Source: Acidobacteriota bacterium (lineage in GTDB: Bacteria > Acidobacteriota > Blastocatellia > Pyrinomonadales > Pyrinomonadaceae). Taken from it: a stretch of DNA of 37,635 bases. Under the pieces are notes generated by a model. That model was not told where the DNA came from, searched no databases, and worked only from the letters and a program-made list of their open reading frames with translations. Below are positions 207 to 31,680 of the stretch, one piece after another. The position numbers and the translations under genes are program-made. The stretch spans positions 1 to 37,635 of the forward strand of contig QHXG01000186.1 in NCBI GenBank assembly GCA_003222845.1, given 5' to 3'. The number at the start of each line of letters is the position of its first letter. Positions within the stretch are counted from its first letter, which is position 1.

Positions 207-1460
207 TTAATTGATCGCCCGTGCAATCACGCATTTCAAATAATGCGTCTCGGGCACGCCGAGCAGCACTGGATGATCCGCGGATTGCCCACGCTTCTCG
301 ATAATTTGCACCCGACGACGAGCGTCAAGCGCGGCTTCGGCGATGATGTCGAGGAACGTTTCTTCACTCATGTGATACGAACAGGTGCAAGTAACCAACA
401 CGCCACCAGGATTCAGAAGTTTCAGCGCCCGCAGGTTGATCTCTTTATAGCCGCGCGCGGCTGATGGCACGCTGGCGCGGTTCTTCGCGAACGCGGGCGG
501 ATCGAGGACGATCGTATCGAAACGATCACCATTGGCCTCCATTTCTCGCAAAGCATCGAACACATTAGCGGCGCGAAATTCAACGTTGCGCGCGTTGTTG
601 AGTGCAGCGTTGCGCTGAGCCGCAGCAATCGCGTCGGCAGAAATGTCGATGCCCATTACGTTATCGCAGGCCGATGCGAGGTGCAGCGCGAAACCACCAT
701 TGAAGGTGAAACAATCAAGCGCGCGGCCATGAGCGAGACTGCAGGCGGCCAGATAGTTTTCGCGTTGATCGAGGAACGCTCCGGTCTTTTGTCCGCTTAG
801 GGGCGAGACAAAAAAGCGAATCCCATGTTGATTTATCTCGATTTGGAATGCGCCGGCAGAGCGCAGCGGCGACGGCGCTTTGGATACCTGTGGCATGAGG
901 GCGCTGTCTGAATCCAAAGCGCCGTCGCCGCTGCGCTCTGCCGGCGCACTCCAAAGCACGCCGGTACGCAATTCCAGTCCTTCAAATTCTCGCACGCGCG
1001 CATCGTTCCGCTCGACGATTGCCCGCGGCTTGAATTCTTCTACCAACAAATCAACCAACGTGCTCTGCAACCGTTCCGCGCCCTGAGATAATGTCTGAAT
1101 CACGAAAACTTGATCATAGACATCGATGATCAGCGAGGGCATCAGATCACCTTCTGAATAAACCAATCGGTAGGCATTAGTTTCGCCCGCAATGGCTTGG
1201 CGCCGCTCGGCGCAACCACGCAGACGCTCGCGCCACCATTCGCTATCGATCGTCTCCTCACGCGTCGTTAAAAAGCGCAAGGCGATCTCCGAAAGCTCGC
1301 TGTAAAGCGCTTGCCCCACAAAATTTCCGGTATCGTCAACCACCGCGACGATGTCACCCGCCTTCGCGTCCGTCACGTCGCGCACATCGCTGCGATACAC
1401 CCAAAGGTGGCCCTTTCGAATGCGCTTCGCGCCGCGAATTGAGATCTTTATTTGCGTCAT
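207..1460 (-). CDS. rlmI: Class I SAM-dependent rRNA methyltransferase, RlmI-like (23S rRNA m5C), with an in-frame palindromic repeat
   Basis: Motifs GHLWVYRSDV (PUA), GQKTGAFLDQREN, DCFTFNGGFALHLA, IVLDPPAFAKN and TCSYHM. Start placed at MTQIKISIRGAKRIRKGHLW (ATG 1458-1460); the ORF-track extension upstream is translated repeat sequence. Confidence 0.88.
   Translation of the reverse strand: MTQIKISIRGAKRIRKGHLWVYRSDVRDVTDAKAGDIVAVVDDTGNFVGQALYSELSEIALRFLTTREETIDSEWWRERLRGCAERRQAIAGETNAYRLVYSEGDLMPSLIIDVYDQVFVIQTLSQGAERLQSTLVDLLVEEFKPRAIVERNDARVREFEGLELRTGVLWSAPAERSGDGALDSDSALMPQVSKAPSPLRSAGAFQIEINQHGIRFFVSPLSGQKTGAFLDQRENYLAACSLAHGRALDCFTFNGGFALHLASACDNVMGIDISADAIAAAQRNAALNNARNVEFRAANVFDALREMEANGDRFDTIVLDPPAFAKNRASVPSAARGYKEINLRALKLLNPGGVLVTCTCSYHMSEETFLDIIAEAALDARRRVQIIEKRGQSADHPVLLGVPETHYLKCVIARAIN
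842..955. repeat. Palindromic element family A, copy 1 (arms 842-885 and 912-955, 26-nt loop), inside rlmI-like CDS
   Basis: Arms tttggaatgcgccggcagagcgcagcggcgacggcgctttggat / atccaaagcgccgtcgccgctgcgctctgccggcgcactccaaa; 43 of 44 complementary by eye. Length 114 nt = 38 codons. Confidence 0.95.
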
Positions 1461-4097: not shown

Positions 4098-4131
4098 CCC
4101 TCACCCTAGCCCTCTCCCAGGGGGAGAGGGG
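4098..4131. repeat. Family B hairpin (CCCTCACCC..CCCTCTCCC/GGGAGAGGG), between kinase and regulator
   Basis: ccctcaccctagccctctcccagggggagagggg; same element as at 25370, 26152 and 26282. Confidence 0.85.
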
Positions 4132-17028: not shown

Positions 17029-17170
17029 GGTTACAGAACCGCGAGCGGTAGCGACCGGCCTGGGTACGCAGGCGTCCCGCCTGCTCATGTGCATGCTGCC
17101 CATCGTCGATTAAGCAGGCGAGACGCCTGCGTACCCAGGGCCGGTGGCTACCGCTCGCGGTTCCGTAACC
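17029..17170. repeat. Family D long imperfect palindrome (arms 17029-17085 and 17113-17170)
   Basis: ggttacagaaccgcgagcggtagcgaccggcc-tgggtacgcaggcgtcccgcctgct versus reverse complement ggttacggaaccgcgagcggtagccaccggccctgggtacgcaggcgtctcgcctgct. Confidence 0.92.
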
Positions 17171-17194: not shown

Positions 17195-20100
17195 TCAGAA
17201 ATTGAATCTGGCGCTAAGGGTGACTTTTCTGTTACCGGCGCCGTTGCCGCCTCCAAATCCGCCGCCGGGACCGCCAAAGAAACCGAAGTTCCCGCCGAGC
17301 CCAAGCGATTGGCCAAACAGAGGCGAAGAAAGATTGCCATAAGGCGTTCCCAGATTCACGTGATTGAAGAGGTTCTGGAAATTCACGGAAAACGTCAAGG
17401 TGTATTTCGACGCGGCGCCGGCGCCTGCTCCGCCCATCATCATATTGCCGCCGCCACCATGATCCCCACCTCCGCCGGGGCCCTTTCCGCCACCGCCGCC
17501 GACGTTGATCATTGGGCCGCCTCGTCCGCCCATTGCACCACCTTCGCCGCGCTTTCCAGTTTCGGCGGTAGTCTTCTGGCCGCCTTGCTTTGACGACGAC
17601 GCGCTTTTGCGGGCTTCGCCACCAAAGCCAAACGTGCGACTGATGCGCAGGTTCACGGAAAACGCGCCCGGACCTTGACCGTAATTGCGGGGAATTATTT
17701 GCTCGCCGGGATTAGGAACGAGATTGAAGGTGCCAAATCGCGTACAGCGAATGTTGACGCTATTGCAGTCGGCGCCCGTCGCGGCGAAGCTAGGCCGCTC
17801 GTTATATTGCCGATCAAGGTTCGTGTCGCGGCCAGTCGTGATATTGAACGGCGGACCAGAATTCGCGATGATAAATGGACTGAACACCAACTTCCACCAG
17901 GGCGCATTGATGGTGCCAACCAGCGTAAAGCGATGACGGACGTCACCTGAACCGCGTCCGTACTCACCGGTAAAATCATACGAGCTGACTGGGAAACCGC
18001 CACCTCCATCCGTGTCGTTGGTCTGCTTTGCCAACGTATAGCTGCCCTGAAGCGAGATTTTCGGATTCAGGCGGCTGTTGAATCCAACACTGAAATTCGA
18101 CATCCGAAACTTGCCGCTCGATTCGTACTGATTGATGTCGCCCAAGGCCGGATTCGGCCGGATGCCGTTGGGGGTGGCCGTGGTAATTGTGCCAGGCAGG
18201 GGCGCATTTATATCGCGCGCACGAATCACGTGCGAAATTCTGTAAGTAAAAATACCCACGAATCCTGTGATGTTTTTCGGCAACTGTCGTTCGACCTGAA
18301 CACCAGCCAGGGTTACCAGCGGCGCTTGAAGATTCGGCGACACTCGCCATGTAGTTTGCTGCGTGGGCGGAACTACGCCCGTCAGCGAAGCAGGCACGAT
18401 CGGGAACAGGTTCAGTACGTTATAGATTGGCCGAGCTGTCGGGGCGTCGAGATCCGATTGCGCCGGCGCGGAAAGAGTCTTTGACACCGGCTCCGCCAAA
18501 ACGAACTGAAGCTCGCTCGATCCATTGAAACGATTCGTTGTCAGCGAAAAACCTTCACTGAATCGATTGTAGAAAATGCCGCCGCCGCCACGAATCACCG
18601 TCTTGGGAGGTTTGGTGGCGTTGGCCGCACCGGGCGACCACGCAAAGCCAAGTCGCGGGGCAAAGTTGAACTTACTGCTGATGTTGGTTTGATTCTCGTA
18701 ACGCAGGCCGTAACTGAGAGTGAGGTTTGGCCGAATGCGCCAGTCATCCTGCCAGTAAAAACCGATATCCATTTGGGAAATGGAAGCTTCGGGATTACCG
18801 GTGTTGATGCTGAACTGCGAAGCGCCGCCGCCCAGTCTGCGAGTGCAATCAGCTACGGAAATTCCCGCGCCGCAAAAAGCCTGCTGCGCCGCGGAAAGCC
18901 CGCGCTGTTGCACGAACAACGTGCGGCGATAACGCTCAAGGCTGCTCAATTGAATGCTGGTGCCGGCGATAGGATTGTTGTTGGCGTCAAAGGCCGGACC
19001 GAAGCCACCGGTGAAAGTCCACTGCCCACCGAAATTATTCGGATTGACGTCATCGATCTTCACGCCGCGCACGCGCCCGCCGAATTTGAAGGTGTGCGTG
19101 CCCTTCTGAATCTGAGTAAAGTTATTCAACTCCCAGCTCGTTCTTTTATTGATCGAGTGGCCAACTTGCGAGCAAGTTGCTGAAGGCGTAATGCAACCAT
19201 TGAATGCGCCGCTTACGTTCAAAACCGGTATCGTGCTGTTACCCAGATTCTCGTTACGACCACGAGAATACTGAAATCGCGTTTCGTTTATGGTAAACGC
19301 ATTGATGACGGCAGTTTCTGTCAACTGCAGGTTGTGATTTGTGGATTTGGACTGGTATCCCCGCTGCGGGAGAGTAAATCCACCGACGCCGTTTACACTT
19401 CGGAATTCAAAAAAATTGTAGCGGGCAATCAGCGTATTGCGATCGTTGATTGCATAGTCGAGGCGCGGGCTGATATTCGTGTTCCTGCGCGGCACCAGTG
19501 CTCCCAAACCAAAATCGGTCGGCGTCAGCGCAGAATTCAGAATCGTTGCACGCACCAGATCGTTATCGTCAGTTTCGTTACGATTGGCTTCAAAGAAGAA
19601 CGAGGCCTTCTTTTTGACGATAGGCCCGCTCAGACTTCCGCCGAACTGCCGCTGTTGATATGGCGAGCGCTTGCTGGAGCTAATCGCGAATGGATTGCGT
19701 GAATTCAAACTCTCGTCCTGAAAATTAAAATTGGCGCTGCCGCGTATCTTGTCAGTTCCCGGCCTGGTCAAAATGTCGATACGCCCTGATGGCTGATCAT
19801 TTTCCGGCGCGAAGGGATTCTGGTTGATGCGAATCTCGCGTATCGCTTCTTTTGGCGGCAGGTTGCCCCCGGAAAATCCATCGATAAAAATCTGGCCACC
19901 GCTCGGACCCACTGACGGGCCGGCGAGAGCTTGCAGCGCGGCGGCGAGTTCATCCGGATCGTCAGGTAGAGCTTCCAGGTCCTTGCCCGACAGCACTTGC
20001 TGATTGGCGTTATTGTTGGTGTCGGTACTGATCGGTGTTTCCGCGTTGACCTTTACCTGCGTTTCGATAGCCGCGATTTTCAAAGTGATATTCACCGGGT

Positions 20101-20407
20101 CGCGCTTCGCTGCGGTTACGTCGACCTCCGCGTCCTCGGAAGTCGCAAATCCGGTTGCGGTAGCGTGCACTCTGTATTTTCCCGGCGCAAGTCCGGCGAA
20201 TGAATACGTGCCATCAGCCGTTGTCGTCGCGGTCTTTTGGGCGCCGGCGGCATCGGTCAGCGTTACAGTAGCACCAACAATCGAAGCGCCGAACTCGTCG
20301 TTAATTACGCCGCGCAAGCTCGCTCGGCCCTGCGCAAAGACTGTGGTTGACAGACCCGCTAGTAAGAGCACGGTCGCCAAACAAGGAAATAGTTTTCGAA
20401 TATTCAT
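17195..20407 (-). CDS. Oar-like TonB-dependent receptor with N-terminal carboxypeptidase-regulatory-like domain and Gly-rich insert near the C-terminus
   Basis: GRASLRGVINDEFGASIVGATVTLTDAAG... (CarboxypepD_reg), plug-like IREIRINQNPFAPENDQPSGRIDILTRPGTDKIRGS, barrel with terminal KVTLSARFNF; Gly-rich PMINVGGGGGKGPGGGGDHGGGGNMMMGGAG. Confidence 0.9.
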   Translation of the reverse strand: MNIRKLFPCLATVLLLAGLSTTVFAQGRASLRGVINDEFGASIVGATVTLTDAAGAQKTATTTADGTYSFAGLAPGKYRVHATATGFATSEDAEVDVTAAKRDPVNITLKIAAIETQVKVNAETPISTDTNNNANQQVLSGKDLEALPDDPDELAAALQALAGPSVGPSGGQIFIDGFSGGNLPPKEAIREIRINQNPFAPENDQPSGRIDILTRPGTDKIRGSANFNFQDESLNSRNPFAISSSKRSPYQQRQFGGSLSGPIVKKKASFFFEANRNETDDNDLVRATILNSALTPTDFGLGALVPRRNTNISPRLDYAINDRNTLIARYNFFEFRSVNGVGGFTLPQRGYQSKSTNHNLQLTETAVINAFTINETRFQYSRGRNENLGNSTIPVLNVSGAFNGCITPSATCSQVGHSINKRTSWELNNFTQIQKGTHTFKFGGRVRGVKIDDVNPNNFGGQWTFTGGFGPAFDANNNPIAGTSIQLSSLERYRRTLFVQQRGLSAAQQAFCGAGISVADCTRRLGGGASQFSINTGNPEASISQMDIGFYWQDDWRIRPNLTLSYGLRYENQTNISSKFNFAPRLGFAWSPGAANATKPPKTVIRGGGGIFYNRFSEGFSLTTNRFNGSSELQFVLAEPVSKTLSAPAQSDLDAPTARPIYNVLNLFPIVPASLTGVVPPTQQTTWRVSPNLQAPLVTLAGVQVERQLPKNITGFVGIFTYRISHVIRARDINAPLPGTITTATPNGIRPNPALGDINQYESSGKFRMSNFSVGFNSRLNPKISLQGSYTLAKQTNDTDGGGGFPVSSYDFTGEYGRGSGDVRHRFTLVGTINAPWWKLVFSPFIIANSGPPFNITTGRDTNLDRQYNERPSFAATGADCNSVNIRCTRFGTFNLVPNPGEQIIPRNYGQGPGAFSVNLRISRTFGFGGEARKSASSSKQGGQKTTAETGKRGEGGAMGGRGGPMINVGGGGGKGPGGGGDHGGGGNMMMGGAGAGAASKYTLTFSVNFQNLFNHVNLGTPYGNLSSPLFGQSLGLGGNFGFFGGPGGGFGGGNGAGNRKVTLSARFNF

Positions 20408-20435: not shown

Positions 20436-20555
20436 TTTTGGAGTGCGCCGGCAGAGCGAAGTGGCGACGGCGCTTTGGATTTTGACCAAGCGTTGGGTCG
20501 TAGTTGAAAGATCCAAAGCGCCGTCGCCACTTCGCTCTGCCGGCGCACTCCAAAA
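20436..20555. repeat. Palindromic element family A, copy 3 (arms 20436-20480 and 20511-20555)
   Basis: ttttggagtgcgccggcagagcgaagtggcgacggcgctttggat / atccaaagcgccgtcgccacttcgctctgccggcgcactccaaaa; perfect arm complementarity by eye, with two paired changes relative to copies 1 and 2. Confidence 0.95.
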
Positions 20556-20559
20556 AGGT

Positions 20560-21840
20560 TTACGGCACGCCGACGCCGCCGAACATGCCACCAAAACTTC
20601 CGTTGAGATCCACGCCTTGGGGGCGACCCTGGCCGCCACCGGGTTGCTGGCGCGCCGCGACCATCGTCAAGAGCGGCTCGACTCCGGTGACCAGAGAGAT
20701 TGCGGTGAACTGAGTCGGGTCTGAGCCCGGCAGGCTCGACATGATAACCATGTCGCCCACTTTGACTTCACTAATCGAGATCGTGGGCAGACGTTCAAGG
20801 ATGTCAGCGACGTTCGGTCCGCCGCCACCCATGCGTGGGCCGCCACCTTGTGGCCCACCGGGTCCGGCACCTTGCGGTCGTTGCGCTGCTTGTCCCTGGT
20901 TTTGTGCCTGTCCCGGTCCGGCGCCGGCTTTGGCGGGCCCGCCAGCAGCCCCTGGCCCCATACCGCCTCCGAACATAGCGGTCATATTTTCAGGCCATCG
21001 GCGGAGAACTGAATCCGGCTTTAGCACAATCGTAATCGGTTTCTTGGTTGTAAGATCATTAATCTTGAGTTGGTTGGTGGCCAGGTCAATCGCGGTCACG
21101 GTGCCACCGACGATCTTAAACGTTCCAAACACCACTTCTTCGGCGGTCAAGTGTGTACCATCCGGGCTCTTATCGCCGAGGGCTCGCAACTGATCTTGGA
21201 CTTTTACCTCTTCAAACGTGCTGGGCTTGGCTTCGCTATACTTGGGGATGGTGTCGGGCGGATAGCGCCGCATCAAAACTTTGTCGGTGATCGGAATAAT
21301 GACCGCCTGCTGAGCACCCATCAAGCTGCGGCTCGAAACTGTGATCTCTTTCGTGCTCGGATTAACCGAGGTGACGATGCCGCTGACGCCGCGTCTACGC
21401 CACTCGGCCCTCTCTTGCTCCTGTTTCTTCGCGACATCCGCCTTGCTCATTACGACCACCTGGGTCGTGGGCACCGTCTTCTGATCCGAGCCCGCTCTCC
21501 AGCGCGCCCATACACGATCACCCTGACCAACATCTGCAAGCGTGATGTCCGTGGCACTGGCCATTGTCTTCTCGCCGGGTGCCATGCGCTTATACTGCGT
21601 CTTACCGCTAAGATTGATGTTGAAGATGACGCCCTTATCGTCTCGGACGACCATTTGCTTGGCAGCTGCATCAATTGCTTTGACTTCGCCGATTACACCG
21701 CTGACCGCTGAGGTTGCCGGAGACGCGCTCGGCGTCTGCCCATAAACCGCGCCACGGAAACCAATCGAGGCCACCAATAAGCAGGTCAATATCAATAATT
21801 TTCGCACAATGCCGCCCTGGTTCATTTGAAGAATATCCAT
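20560..21840 (-). CDS. Secreted DUF5666-like protein with Gly/Pro/Gln-rich segment
   Basis: Signal peptide (LLILTCLLVASIGFRGAVYGQ), repeated GxVxxIDxxxxxxxxxD segments (SGVIGEVKAIDAAAKQMVVRDDKG; SGIVTSVNPSTKEITVSSRS; GGTVTAIDLATNQLKINDLTTKK). Confidence 0.65.
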   Translation of the reverse strand: MDILQMNQGGIVRKLLILTCLLVASIGFRGAVYGQTPSASPATSAVSGVIGEVKAIDAAAKQMVVRDDKGVIFNINLSGKTQYKRMAPGEKTMASATDITLADVGQGDRVWARWRAGSDQKTVPTTQVVVMSKADVAKKQEQERAEWRRRGVSGIVTSVNPSTKEITVSSRSLMGAQQAVIIPITDKVLMRRYPPDTIPKYSEAKPSTFEEVKVQDQLRALGDKSPDGTHLTAEEVVFGTFKIVGGTVTAIDLATNQLKINDLTTKKPITIVLKPDSVLRRWPENMTAMFGGGMGPGAAGGPAKAGAGPGQAQNQGQAAQRPQGAGPGGPQGGGPRMGGGGPNVADILERLPTISISEVKVGDMVIMSSLPGSDPTQFTAISLVTGVEPLLTMVAARQQPGGGQGRPQGVDLNGSFGGMFGGVGVP

Positions 21841-25217: not shown

Positions 25218-25369
25218 GAAATCTTCTGGTCCGAAAAACTTCAGTTCAATTGCGTTCCCTGGGAGAGGACTAGGGGAGGGCTTAGTGACTCAAGCCACGT
25301 TTTAGTCCTCTCTTCCCGCCACCGCACAACCAAAAATAAGGAGATGAATTCTTACACTGCTCTGCTATG

Positions 25370-25431
25370 CCCTCACCCCGGCCCTCTCCCAAAGGGAGAG
25401 GGATCAACGACAAACTGAAGTTTGTCGGACA
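25370..25431. repeat. Composite of family B hairpin (25370-25403) and family C palindrome (25408-25431)
   Basis: ccctcaccccggccctctcccaaagggagaggga tcaa cgacaaactgaagtttgtcggaca. Confidence 0.85.
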
Positions 25432-26034: not shown

Positions 26035-26151
26035 CGTGTGATCGCTCCGATTCTACGTTGGCTGGAGAACGAAAGTTTCAAGGTAGCACAAGACTTAAGG
26101 ATGTGTCTCCCCTATCGTGCCGATTCAGTCTGCCAAGAATTGTAGGTAACT

Positions 26152-26184
26152 CCCTCTCCGTTTGGGAGAGGGCCGGGGTGAGGG
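26152..26184. repeat. Family B hairpin, reverse orientation
   Basis: ccctctccgtttgggagagggccggggtgaggg. Confidence 0.85.
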
Positions 26185-26281
26185 CCTGGCGACGAAACTC
26201 AAAATACTTCTTCTCCTGTTTCTATCGGAGTGGACAGGAAAAACGATGGAGGAGAGGTTTCTTTCTTGTTACTCTGCTAAG

Positions 26282-27628: not shown

Positions 27629-27656
27629 CAGTGCTCCGGCAGAGAGCGTCGGCGAC

Positions 27657-27734
27657 TGGAGCGCAAGCGTCCTCGCTTGCAATGAGCGCAACCGTGCGAG
27701 AGTTTGAGGTGCAAGCGAGGACGCTTGCGCTCCA
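27657..27734. repeat. Family G palindrome (arms 27657-27681 and 27710-27734)
   Basis: tggagcgcaagcgtcctcgcttgca ... tgcaagcgaggacgcttgcgctcca; exact 25-nt arms. Confidence 0.95.
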
Positions 27735-27818
27735 ATCCCGCTACGCTTCTGCCAGCGCGCCGCTCCAAAGCCCGCTGGTTGCAGTCGTCGCGCGGTGAGA
27801 GTTTAATATAGCTGAAAA

Positions 27819-30328: not shown

Positions 30329-30544
30329 AACCGCAAAGCGGTTGCGACCTACAGCCTAGGGTTGCCGCTTCGGCTACCCTAGGTGACGAGTTTCGTTGGT
30401 TTTCAACCGCAAGGCGGTTGCGCCCGTTTTTGATTCGCCGAGGAATGACTCAACCGCGTTGCGGTTGAATGGTTTTTTCATTCGTGATCCCAGGGTAGCC
30501 GAAGCGGCCAACCCTGGGCTGCGGGGCGCAACCGCGTTGCGGTT
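30329..30544. repeat. Family H nested inverted repeat (outer arms 30329-30383/30489-30544; inner arms 30398-30420/30451-30474)
   Basis: aaccgcaaagcggttgcgacctacagcctagggttgccgcttcggctaccctagg versus reverse complement of 30489-30544; inner caaccgcaaggcggttg / caaccgcgttgcggttg. Confidence 0.9.
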
Positions 30545-30614
30545 AAGGAATCGAGCGAAGCTAAGGCTCGCTAGTTGTCTTTCTTTCTTCTCCCCGAGGC
30601 AGAGGGAATCCTTT

Positions 30615-31421
30615 ATGAAAACCTTCGTCGTTGGCGACATCCACGGACGCTGCGCGCAGCTTCATCACTTGCTCGATCTGCTGCCGCGCGACGAATCAAC
30701 TGATACGTTGATTTTCCTCGGCGACTTGATCGACCGCGGATCGGATGTACCAGGATGCGTCGAGCACGTCTTGAGCCTCTGCGGTGCGAATCCCGAAAGG
30801 GTCATCTGCCTGCGCGGAAATCACGAGCAGATGCTTTTGGATTTTGTCGACGGGAAAAGCCTGACGTGGCTCGACGCCGGCACGGGCGGCGACCGCACAT
30901 TTGCACAGTACACTCAAACGCCGCTCCGCCTTCAGACCGAAGCTGACTTTGATATTGCCCGCAACCTATTCGCCGACAAGATGCCTGCAAATCAAATCGA
31001 GTTCTTTCGTCAGTTGCCTCTGTATCACGAAGACGACTTTGCCCTCTACGTTCATGCGGGTTTGGAGCAGGGCAAGCATCCGCGCGACAGTTCACCCCAG
31101 GCTTTGCTCTGGACCCGCGATATGGAGTTCTACAAGAGCTATCGCGGCAAGCCCTGTGTCTTCGGCCACACACCGACAGCTTTCCTGCCCTTGCGTGGCC
31201 GCCTGGGCCATCACGGCATCTACATCTTCCACAGCGCGATTGGCATCGACACAGGTTACAACCTGCACTCGCCGCTCTCGTGTTTGTCACTGCCCGACTT
31301 CATGCTCTATCAGACATACGCCGACGGCCAAAGCGCAACTCATCACATCACATCGCTGATTCCGGAGACGTTGAAAGAAATGCAGCGGAGGGCGGAATTG
31401 ATTTGGACAGGATTGACATGA
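30615..31421 (+). CDS. Metallophosphoesterase, PP2A-like serine/threonine protein phosphatase family
   Basis: MKTFVVGDIHGRCAQLHHLLD, IFLGDLIDRGSDVPG, VICLRGNHEQMLLDF, YVHAGL, VFGHTP. The 73-aa upstream ORF extension is repeat-derived. Confidence 0.93.
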   Translation: MKTFVVGDIHGRCAQLHHLLDLLPRDESTDTLIFLGDLIDRGSDVPGCVEHVLSLCGANPERVICLRGNHEQMLLDFVDGKSLTWLDAGTGGDRTFAQYTQTPLRLQTEADFDIARNLFADKMPANQIEFFRQLPLYHEDDFALYVHAGLEQGKHPRDSSPQALLWTRDMEFYKSYRGKPCVFGHTPTAFLPLRGRLGHHGIYIFHSAIGIDTGYNLHSPLSCLSLPDFMLYQTYADGQSATHHITSLIPETLKEMQRRAELIWTGLT

Positions 31422-31680
31422 TTTACAAGATATGGAACCTGAGAAGGGCAAGTTATCGACCCTCCAATCTTGTCCATCTTGTTAATCCTGTCTTTCTATT
31501 CGTACCCAAACACTCAATCGGATCCAAACGTCAGCGGAAGGCGGAATTGATTTGGACAGGATTTACATGATTTACAAGATATGGAACCTGAGAAAGGCGA
31601 GTCATCAACCTCCTAATCTTGTCCATCTTGTTAATCCTGTCTTTCTATTCATAACGCAAACACTCAATCGGATCCAGACG
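31383..31680. repeat. ~149-bp tandem duplication spanning the convergent gene junction
   Basis: Unit 1 31383-31531 and unit 2 31532-31680 share cagcgga(g/a)ggcggaattgatttggacaggatt(g/t)acatgatttacaagatatggaacctgagaa... through ...cactcaatcggatcca(a/g)acg. Confidence 0.95.

Follow-up and report, generated by a model that had tools for sequence, protein, structure and literature searches.

Palindromic repeats that lie in frame within protein genes have been described in several bacteria. The Rickettsia palindromic elements (RPEs) are palindromes of 100-150 bp carried in frame in protein genes (PMC10969869). REPs in the same kind of position have been described in Opitutus terrae, Rickettsia conorii, Xanthomonas, Thauera and others, where intragenic REP doublets add 20-30 amino acids or more, and where different REPs occupy about the same site in recB of two Xanthomonas species (PMC3733652). 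Acidobacteria are among the groups from which TIRtrons, with their TIRYT genes and dispersed repeats, are known (Di Nocera et al. 2013, PMC3733652). In some REP dimers the spacer is reported to vary, and a CGTC superfamily of REPs is recognized by a terminal CGTC, an 8-9 bp stem starting with A/T, a CCA tail and the lack of a linked transposase (PMC3733652).

The locus considered here lies in a 37,635-nucleotide stretch from an Acidobacteriota bacterium of the family Pyrinomonadaceae (GCA_003222845.1, contig QHXG01000186.1, positions 1 to 37,635), hereafter the window; the source genome, G000, is a 6.05 Mb draft in 851 contigs. A gene at 207-1460 on the minus strand (ATG at 1460, stop at 207), single copy in the genome, encodes an RlmI-type 23S rRNA (cytosine-C5) methyltransferase, and within it positions 842-955 form a palindrome of a dispersed family, family A. 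Its two 44-nt arms (842-885 and 912-955) are 98% complementary and enclose a 26-nt loop (886-911); like the other palindromes below, it is assigned no strand. Folded as RNA, the element reaches -100.8 kcal/mol, whereas shuffled versions average -45.1 (z = -16.8) and 0 of 200 are as stable. A first-pass annotation, made from the letters alone, had proposed this palindrome and its in-frame, stop-free position in an rlmI-like ORF, and both are borne out; the peptide that it placed between ...LRTGVL and QIEINQHG... is indeed encoded by the 842-955 insert. A plasmid collection searched with the element gave no match, and a genome contig collection searched with the RlmI protein gave one distant relative only.

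Comparison of 29 RlmI orthologues, from relatives whose DNA was retrievable, identifies the segment as an insertion. A short linker of about 5-13 residues, typically YGDxPxE, occupies the site in 27 of the 29, as had been expected, and the insert in the window gene is therefore new. The window protein carries WSAPAERSGDGALDSDSALMPQVSKAPSPLRSAGAFQ in place of this linker, and 27-35 extra residues occur there only in the window species and in its relatives G004 and G006. Empty-site orthologues, which had been proposed as a check, are present in sister genomes (e.g. G001, G002 and G003). Set against RlmI of the nearest species, G002, with which it shares 79% identity when the linker is excluded, the window protein has gained 30 amino acids net, because about six residues of the ancestral YGDxPxE linker are gone. 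The earlier proposal of a clean insertion of 36-38 amino acids thus stands as an in-frame insertion into rlmI but not as a clean one, and its broader claim of a spreading palindrome inserted in frame is supported by the short linker of orthologues that lack the palindrome. The family, the insertion, its frame and the empty orthologues are all read directly from the DNA.

The host protein consists of a PUA domain (residues 5-65), a central domain, the insert (about 169-205) and a catalytic domain (207-417). It matches PUA_3 and methyltransferase entries, and matches on each side of the insert confirm that both flanks fit the RlmI/SAM-methyltransferase families. The protein probably remains a METHYLTRANSFERASE, with the family's invariant positions present (invariant columns across 28 sequences). 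Judged from its PUA, central and C-terminal SAM domains and the family's conserved residues, it is an RlmI-type 23S rRNA (cytosine-C5) methyltransferase; its NCBIfam equivalog scores lie below the cut-off (389 of 575), so that they do not fix the exact target base. An AlphaFold2 model, a step also suggested by the annotation, has a mean pLDDT of 87.9 and leaves only the insert unfolded between confident flanks: residues 176-203, inside the insert, are the sole stretch with pLDDT < 50 and sit between strands 166-171 and 207-211. The model matches the solved relatives PDB 1wxw, 3c0k and 2as0 with TM-scores of 0.84-0.93, and the sequence match to the E. coli enzyme stops at residue 173 of that enzyme and restarts at its residue 183, the insert site. 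Outside the linker, dN/dS between G000 and G002 is about 0.09, equal to that among insert-free species, a rough value since dS is near saturation. The enzyme with its insert probably still works.

Family A is a dispersed repeat in its own right. The retrieved stretches of the window's genome hold about 49 elements, 39 of which are complete doublets with the same ends outward, and a reversed-pattern control gave 0 matches (the 39 come from the stricter scan; a first parse yielded 35, on which the loop-similarity, flank and direct-repeat, and reading-frame statistics are based). Two further copies predicted in the window, at 1503-1618 and 20437-20554, are real: the second lies at 1503-1618, directly upstream of the rlmI start codon, and the third spans 20436-20555, between ORFs 17195-20407 and 20560-21840. 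The ends conform to (A/T)T(T)TGGAG, with T at -7 in 96%, and apart from this conserved terminal T the flanks show a weak A/T preference only. Loops range from 18 to 93 nt and are unrelated between most copies; just 3 of 35 doublets have similar loops, through a nested palindrome of another kind. The arms of one copy resemble each other closely: the variable base of GCGNAGC is identical in both arms in 35 of the 39 doublets, as against 13 expected. Hairpin-templated correction between arms (quasi-palindrome correction) would explain such matching. A MITE with target-site duplication would carry a short direct repeat at the ends of each copy; direct repeats of 4-5 nt stand at the ends of 8 of 35 doublets, where about 3 are expected, with no consistent duplication. 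As side observations, three hybrid doublets (L067, L086 and L091) combine one family A arm with one variant arm (TGGAGTGCGGTGGCAAGCGNAGCGCGACACCGCTTTGGA), and at L092 a stretch resembling family B comes after a family A arm.

In its two inverted, conserved hairpin arms and many dispersed copies family A resembles a REPIN. A conserved spacer moving with the arms is absent from the 35 parsed doublets, and because the loops vary the family is termed REPIN-like rather than a plain REPIN, even though spacers of some REP dimers are also variable. The GTAG tag is absent from the arm consensus, and the family falls outside the CGTC superfamily, since CGTC is only internal in the arm and a RAYT is linked. 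Among 297 sampled genomes of the phylum the strict arm pattern occurs only in G000, G005, G014 and G039; a sensitive search of 60 relatives plus the window's own genome finds family A in all seven members of the genus and in G014, G034 and G039.

The candidate cognate transposase came from weak Y1 (Pfam) matches in sister genomes. Y1 transposases from a first search had been considered as partners and were rejected, as they lie near families B, C and D and 0 are flanked by family A. In G004 and G002 a RAYT lies between inverted family A-type arms, the two proteins being 72% identical; in G002 one flanking arm is of family A and the other of the variant type. The G002 RAYT scores 83.7 bits against NF047646 (REP-associated tyrosine transposase; cut-off 80) and that of G004 scores 78. 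The window's own genome has a homologue at C746:11069-11629, 79% identical to the G002 RAYT. A complete family A doublet ends 14 nt before the coding match of this homologue starts, and about 11 nt beyond its stop codon an inverted family A arm begins. By coordinates, the RAYT homologue of G001 also has family A arms 10-14 nt away on both sides, and that of G005 on one side. From this flanking, here and in the sister genomes, family A is best read as the REP doublet of that RAYT (REPIN/TIRtron type), not as a relative of the RPEs. We infer from the linkage that the RAYT mobilises family A, as would be expected by analogy with other REP systems (PMC3116915, PMC3733652).

Other pairings of palindromes with transposases accompany this one. 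At L148, L150, L153 and L158 (G001, G002 and G000) RAYT-type genes lie between family B arms whose spacing hardly varies (about 575-610 nt), a second REP-RAYT pairing in the genus. At L048 and L051 (G000, contigs C345 and C849) Y1 transposase genes are flanked on both sides by families D and C. The window's genome thus contains at least four palindrome-transposase pairs.

The account preferred for the rlmI insert, to which a probability of roughly 0.85 is given as a whole, is as follows. Genus-level REP doublets of the REPIN-like kind, in which inverted arms of about 44 nt enclose a loop that varies, would depend for their movement on a cognate RAYT acting in trans; this Y1/HUH single-strand transposase is encoded by a gene that itself has family A arms on either side. 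Copies would land widely, and those in genes would nearly all be purged by selection, leaving a few that contain no stop, keep the frame and sit in linkers. The rlmI copy would have gone into the linker that joins the last strand ahead of the catalytic part to the first strand of that part, replacing about six linker codons with 36-37 codons that are expected to form a disordered loop. Several observations fit this account less well: the loops are unconserved, unlike those of classical REPINs, which move with a conserved spacer; the arms are without the GTAG tag of canonical RAYT-linked REPs; and the distant G039, of another family in the same class, has 46 family A arms, nearly identical to those of the genus, without a close family A RAYT at E < 1e-25. 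Horizontal spread or a diverged RAYT are possible explanations for G039.

The same RlmI linker has been entered more than once. In G006 it holds an unrelated palindrome with 37-nt arms, of family B, and in G004 the same family B insertion is found in diverged and decayed form, with an inner hairpin recognized by eye. The tree pairs G004 with G006, and the species closest to this pair, G001 and G003, have an empty linker (support 98/96). The family A insertion of G000 and the family B insertion of G004/G006 are therefore independent, giving at least two independent insertions into one RlmI linker within one genus; the occurrence of the second family is again a matter of sequence. Since the divergence of G004 and G006, the insert common to both has kept its frame over a dS of about 1.25, with a dN/dS of about 0.07 outside the linker, these values being subject to the same near-saturation of dS. 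The linker of G005 aligns to a collapsed family B palindrome better than any of 2000 shuffles (0/2000 as good); as the collapsed consensus was written after the linker had been seen, the segment is graded only a probable scar of family B. No trace of a scar was found in the linkers of G001, G002 and G003. Family B is itself abundant, with 319 matches to its core in the window's own genome. One family B palindrome (CGCGAGCGGTAGCGACCGG core), of the arm family found in rlmI of G004 and G006, lies in the window at 17029-17170 and encloses a nested palindrome of another family (17059-17139).

The RlmI linker is accordingly tolerant of repeated insertions, and under the preferred account such a permissive site would have admitted an unrelated palindrome family independently in the ancestor of G004 and G006. 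The rival that survives best ascribes the recurrence to target preference of the RAYTs, either for the site itself or for older palindrome scars within it, and not to tolerance. It would predict what is seen, a linker that within seven species of one genus holds two unrelated families and a probable scar, the more so as family A has only four in-frame genic copies among 49, and REP stretches do nest, as in the three loops that share a palindrome and in the mixed stretch at L092. Against it, the weak A/T bias of the flanks gives little sign of a preferred target, the linkers of G001, G002 and G003 are scar-free, and a soft linker is enough to explain survival; target preference is judged unlikely.

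Three further genes carry a family A copy in frame, so that the confirmed genic copies number 4 of 49; the remaining copies have no long gene ORF running through them. One lies in a 768-aa protein that matches no Pfam family (G006 and G037 orthologues empty), one in an NRPS adenylation domain (G001, G002 and G042 empty; 93 nt vs 198) and one between the domains of a two-domain protein (G005 and G002 empty). The last, L090:2530-3645, likewise matches no Pfam family, has the element between two similar halves and has orthologues in few relatives only. Some other copies are crossed by long ORFs (e.g. L078) that match no family and are apparently antisense; these were excluded. Of the 210 orientation-frame combinations of the 35 doublets, 36 contain no stop and have a length that is a multiple of three. 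Random insertion would be expected to give more than four in-frame copies, and selection thus probably removes most of them; the argument is rough, since it assumes random insertion into a mostly coding genome and counts ORFs at the copies in place of formal gene calls.

The four genic sites also bear on how the element arrives. From TGGAG to CTCCA the elements measure 110, 112, 117 and 100 nt, mostly not multiples of three, so that the reading frame depends on the loss of target bases. About 15-30 nt of the ancestral linker are missing at all four sites, a loss that simple insertion does not predict and that counts against the preferred account. Two explanations of the junctions were tried and rejected. 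A clean insertion with target duplication is not supported, as no duplication is consistent and linker bases are missing. A model in which the loop is target DNA bracketed by two arms fitted net gains of 87-90 nt at two sites, in size only; at rlmI, the 768-aa gene and the NRPS gene the loops match the empty-site linkers no better than do shuffled or other loops, and at the two-domain gene one of two comparisons is marginal. A more speculative proposal, judged unlikely, is that the elements do not move as intact arm-loop-arm units: each new copy would retain or reconstitute a matching pair of arms about new, unrelated loop DNA and delete 15-30 nt of the target, so that copying is arm-templated and not cut-and-paste, and that linkers like that of RlmI are recurrent landing sites for unrelated palindrome families.

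The first-pass annotation had likened the element to the RPEs, and a corresponding rival ascribes its spread in coding genes to an encoded peptide that does no harm or is of use. Its position in frame speaks for such an element, as do arms free of stops in all six frames, and the likeness stands in so far as the insert works like an RPE. Beyond this it breaks down: the reading frame through the element differs among the four genes, which obtain unrelated peptides, so that no common peptide is under selection, in-frame copies are rare (4/49) and most copies have no gene ORF spanning them, and the family has a RAYT of its own. The reading is largely refuted and very improbable. An assembly artefact, in which two contig ends were joined through the repeat, might be suspected in an assembly of 851 contigs with a repetitive family, and misassembly had been named in advance as an outcome that would overturn the insertion; it is even less probable, as on either side of the insert lie the two halves of one single-copy gene, correctly ordered and in one frame, where a chimera would join unrelated sequences. 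A last rival, at which the extended linkers of G004 and G006 might hint, takes the insert for an old extra domain conserved in this lineage of RlmI. It is refuted and has next to no chance of being right, for the sister extension is an unrelated palindrome, and the conserved domain that the annotation had named as a refuting outcome is absent from other lineages, the other 27 orthologues having no extension of this size.

The window contains other repeats besides. At 31383-31653, just past ORF 30396-31421, a 122-nt unit that contains inverted repeats of the GACAGGATTTACATGATTTACAAGATATGGA type is present as two direct copies (92%). A dispersed palindromic repeat, CCCTCACCC..GCCCTCTCCC...GGGAGAGGG, occurs in direct and inverted copies at 4098-4130, 25364-25403 and 26151-26190. 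A hairpin with 28-nt arms (GGAGCGCAAGCGTCCTCGCTTGCA) at 27654-27737 resembles the family D repeat that flanks the Y1 transposase at L048.

In-frame REP doublets are already known; a limited search of the literature turned up neither family A, nor its association with this RAYT, nor the recurrent use of the RlmI linker. One genus displays the empty, the filled and the probably collapsed states of a site at which a RAYT-linked palindrome has lengthened a conserved housekeeping enzyme by about 30 codons. Any mechanism of RAYT copying must account for arms that match within a copy while the loops are unrelated, and for the target bases missing at four sites; the entry of two unrelated families into one linker shows a point at which a conserved enzyme accepts an extension.

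Compared with described systems, family A shares with the REPINs and their RAYTs (Bertels and Rainey 2011, PMC3116915) inverted arms, a hairpin, dozens of copies and a RAYT flanked by arms; it differs in its longer arms of about 44 nt, the lack of GTAG, the unrelated loops and the presence of some copies in frame. With the TIRtrons (PMC3733652) it has in common a tyrosine transposase with long, non-GTAG inverted repeats and the dispersal of these repeats as dimers, whereas no mention of family A itself was found there, the comparison being one of descriptions. RPEs (PMC10969869) are likewise in-frame palindromes within protein genes, but their peptide is conserved and nearly half of them are in genes, whereas the frames of family A vary and a RAYT is linked; on frames, peptide, location and RAYT, again compared by description, the two are set apart. 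The closest parallel is with the intragenic REPs (PMC3733652), which are also in-frame doublets in protein genes and include a recB site shared by different REPs. Here, by contrast, two unrelated families and a probable scar are found in one rlmI linker within one genus, and empty sister species give the order of events.
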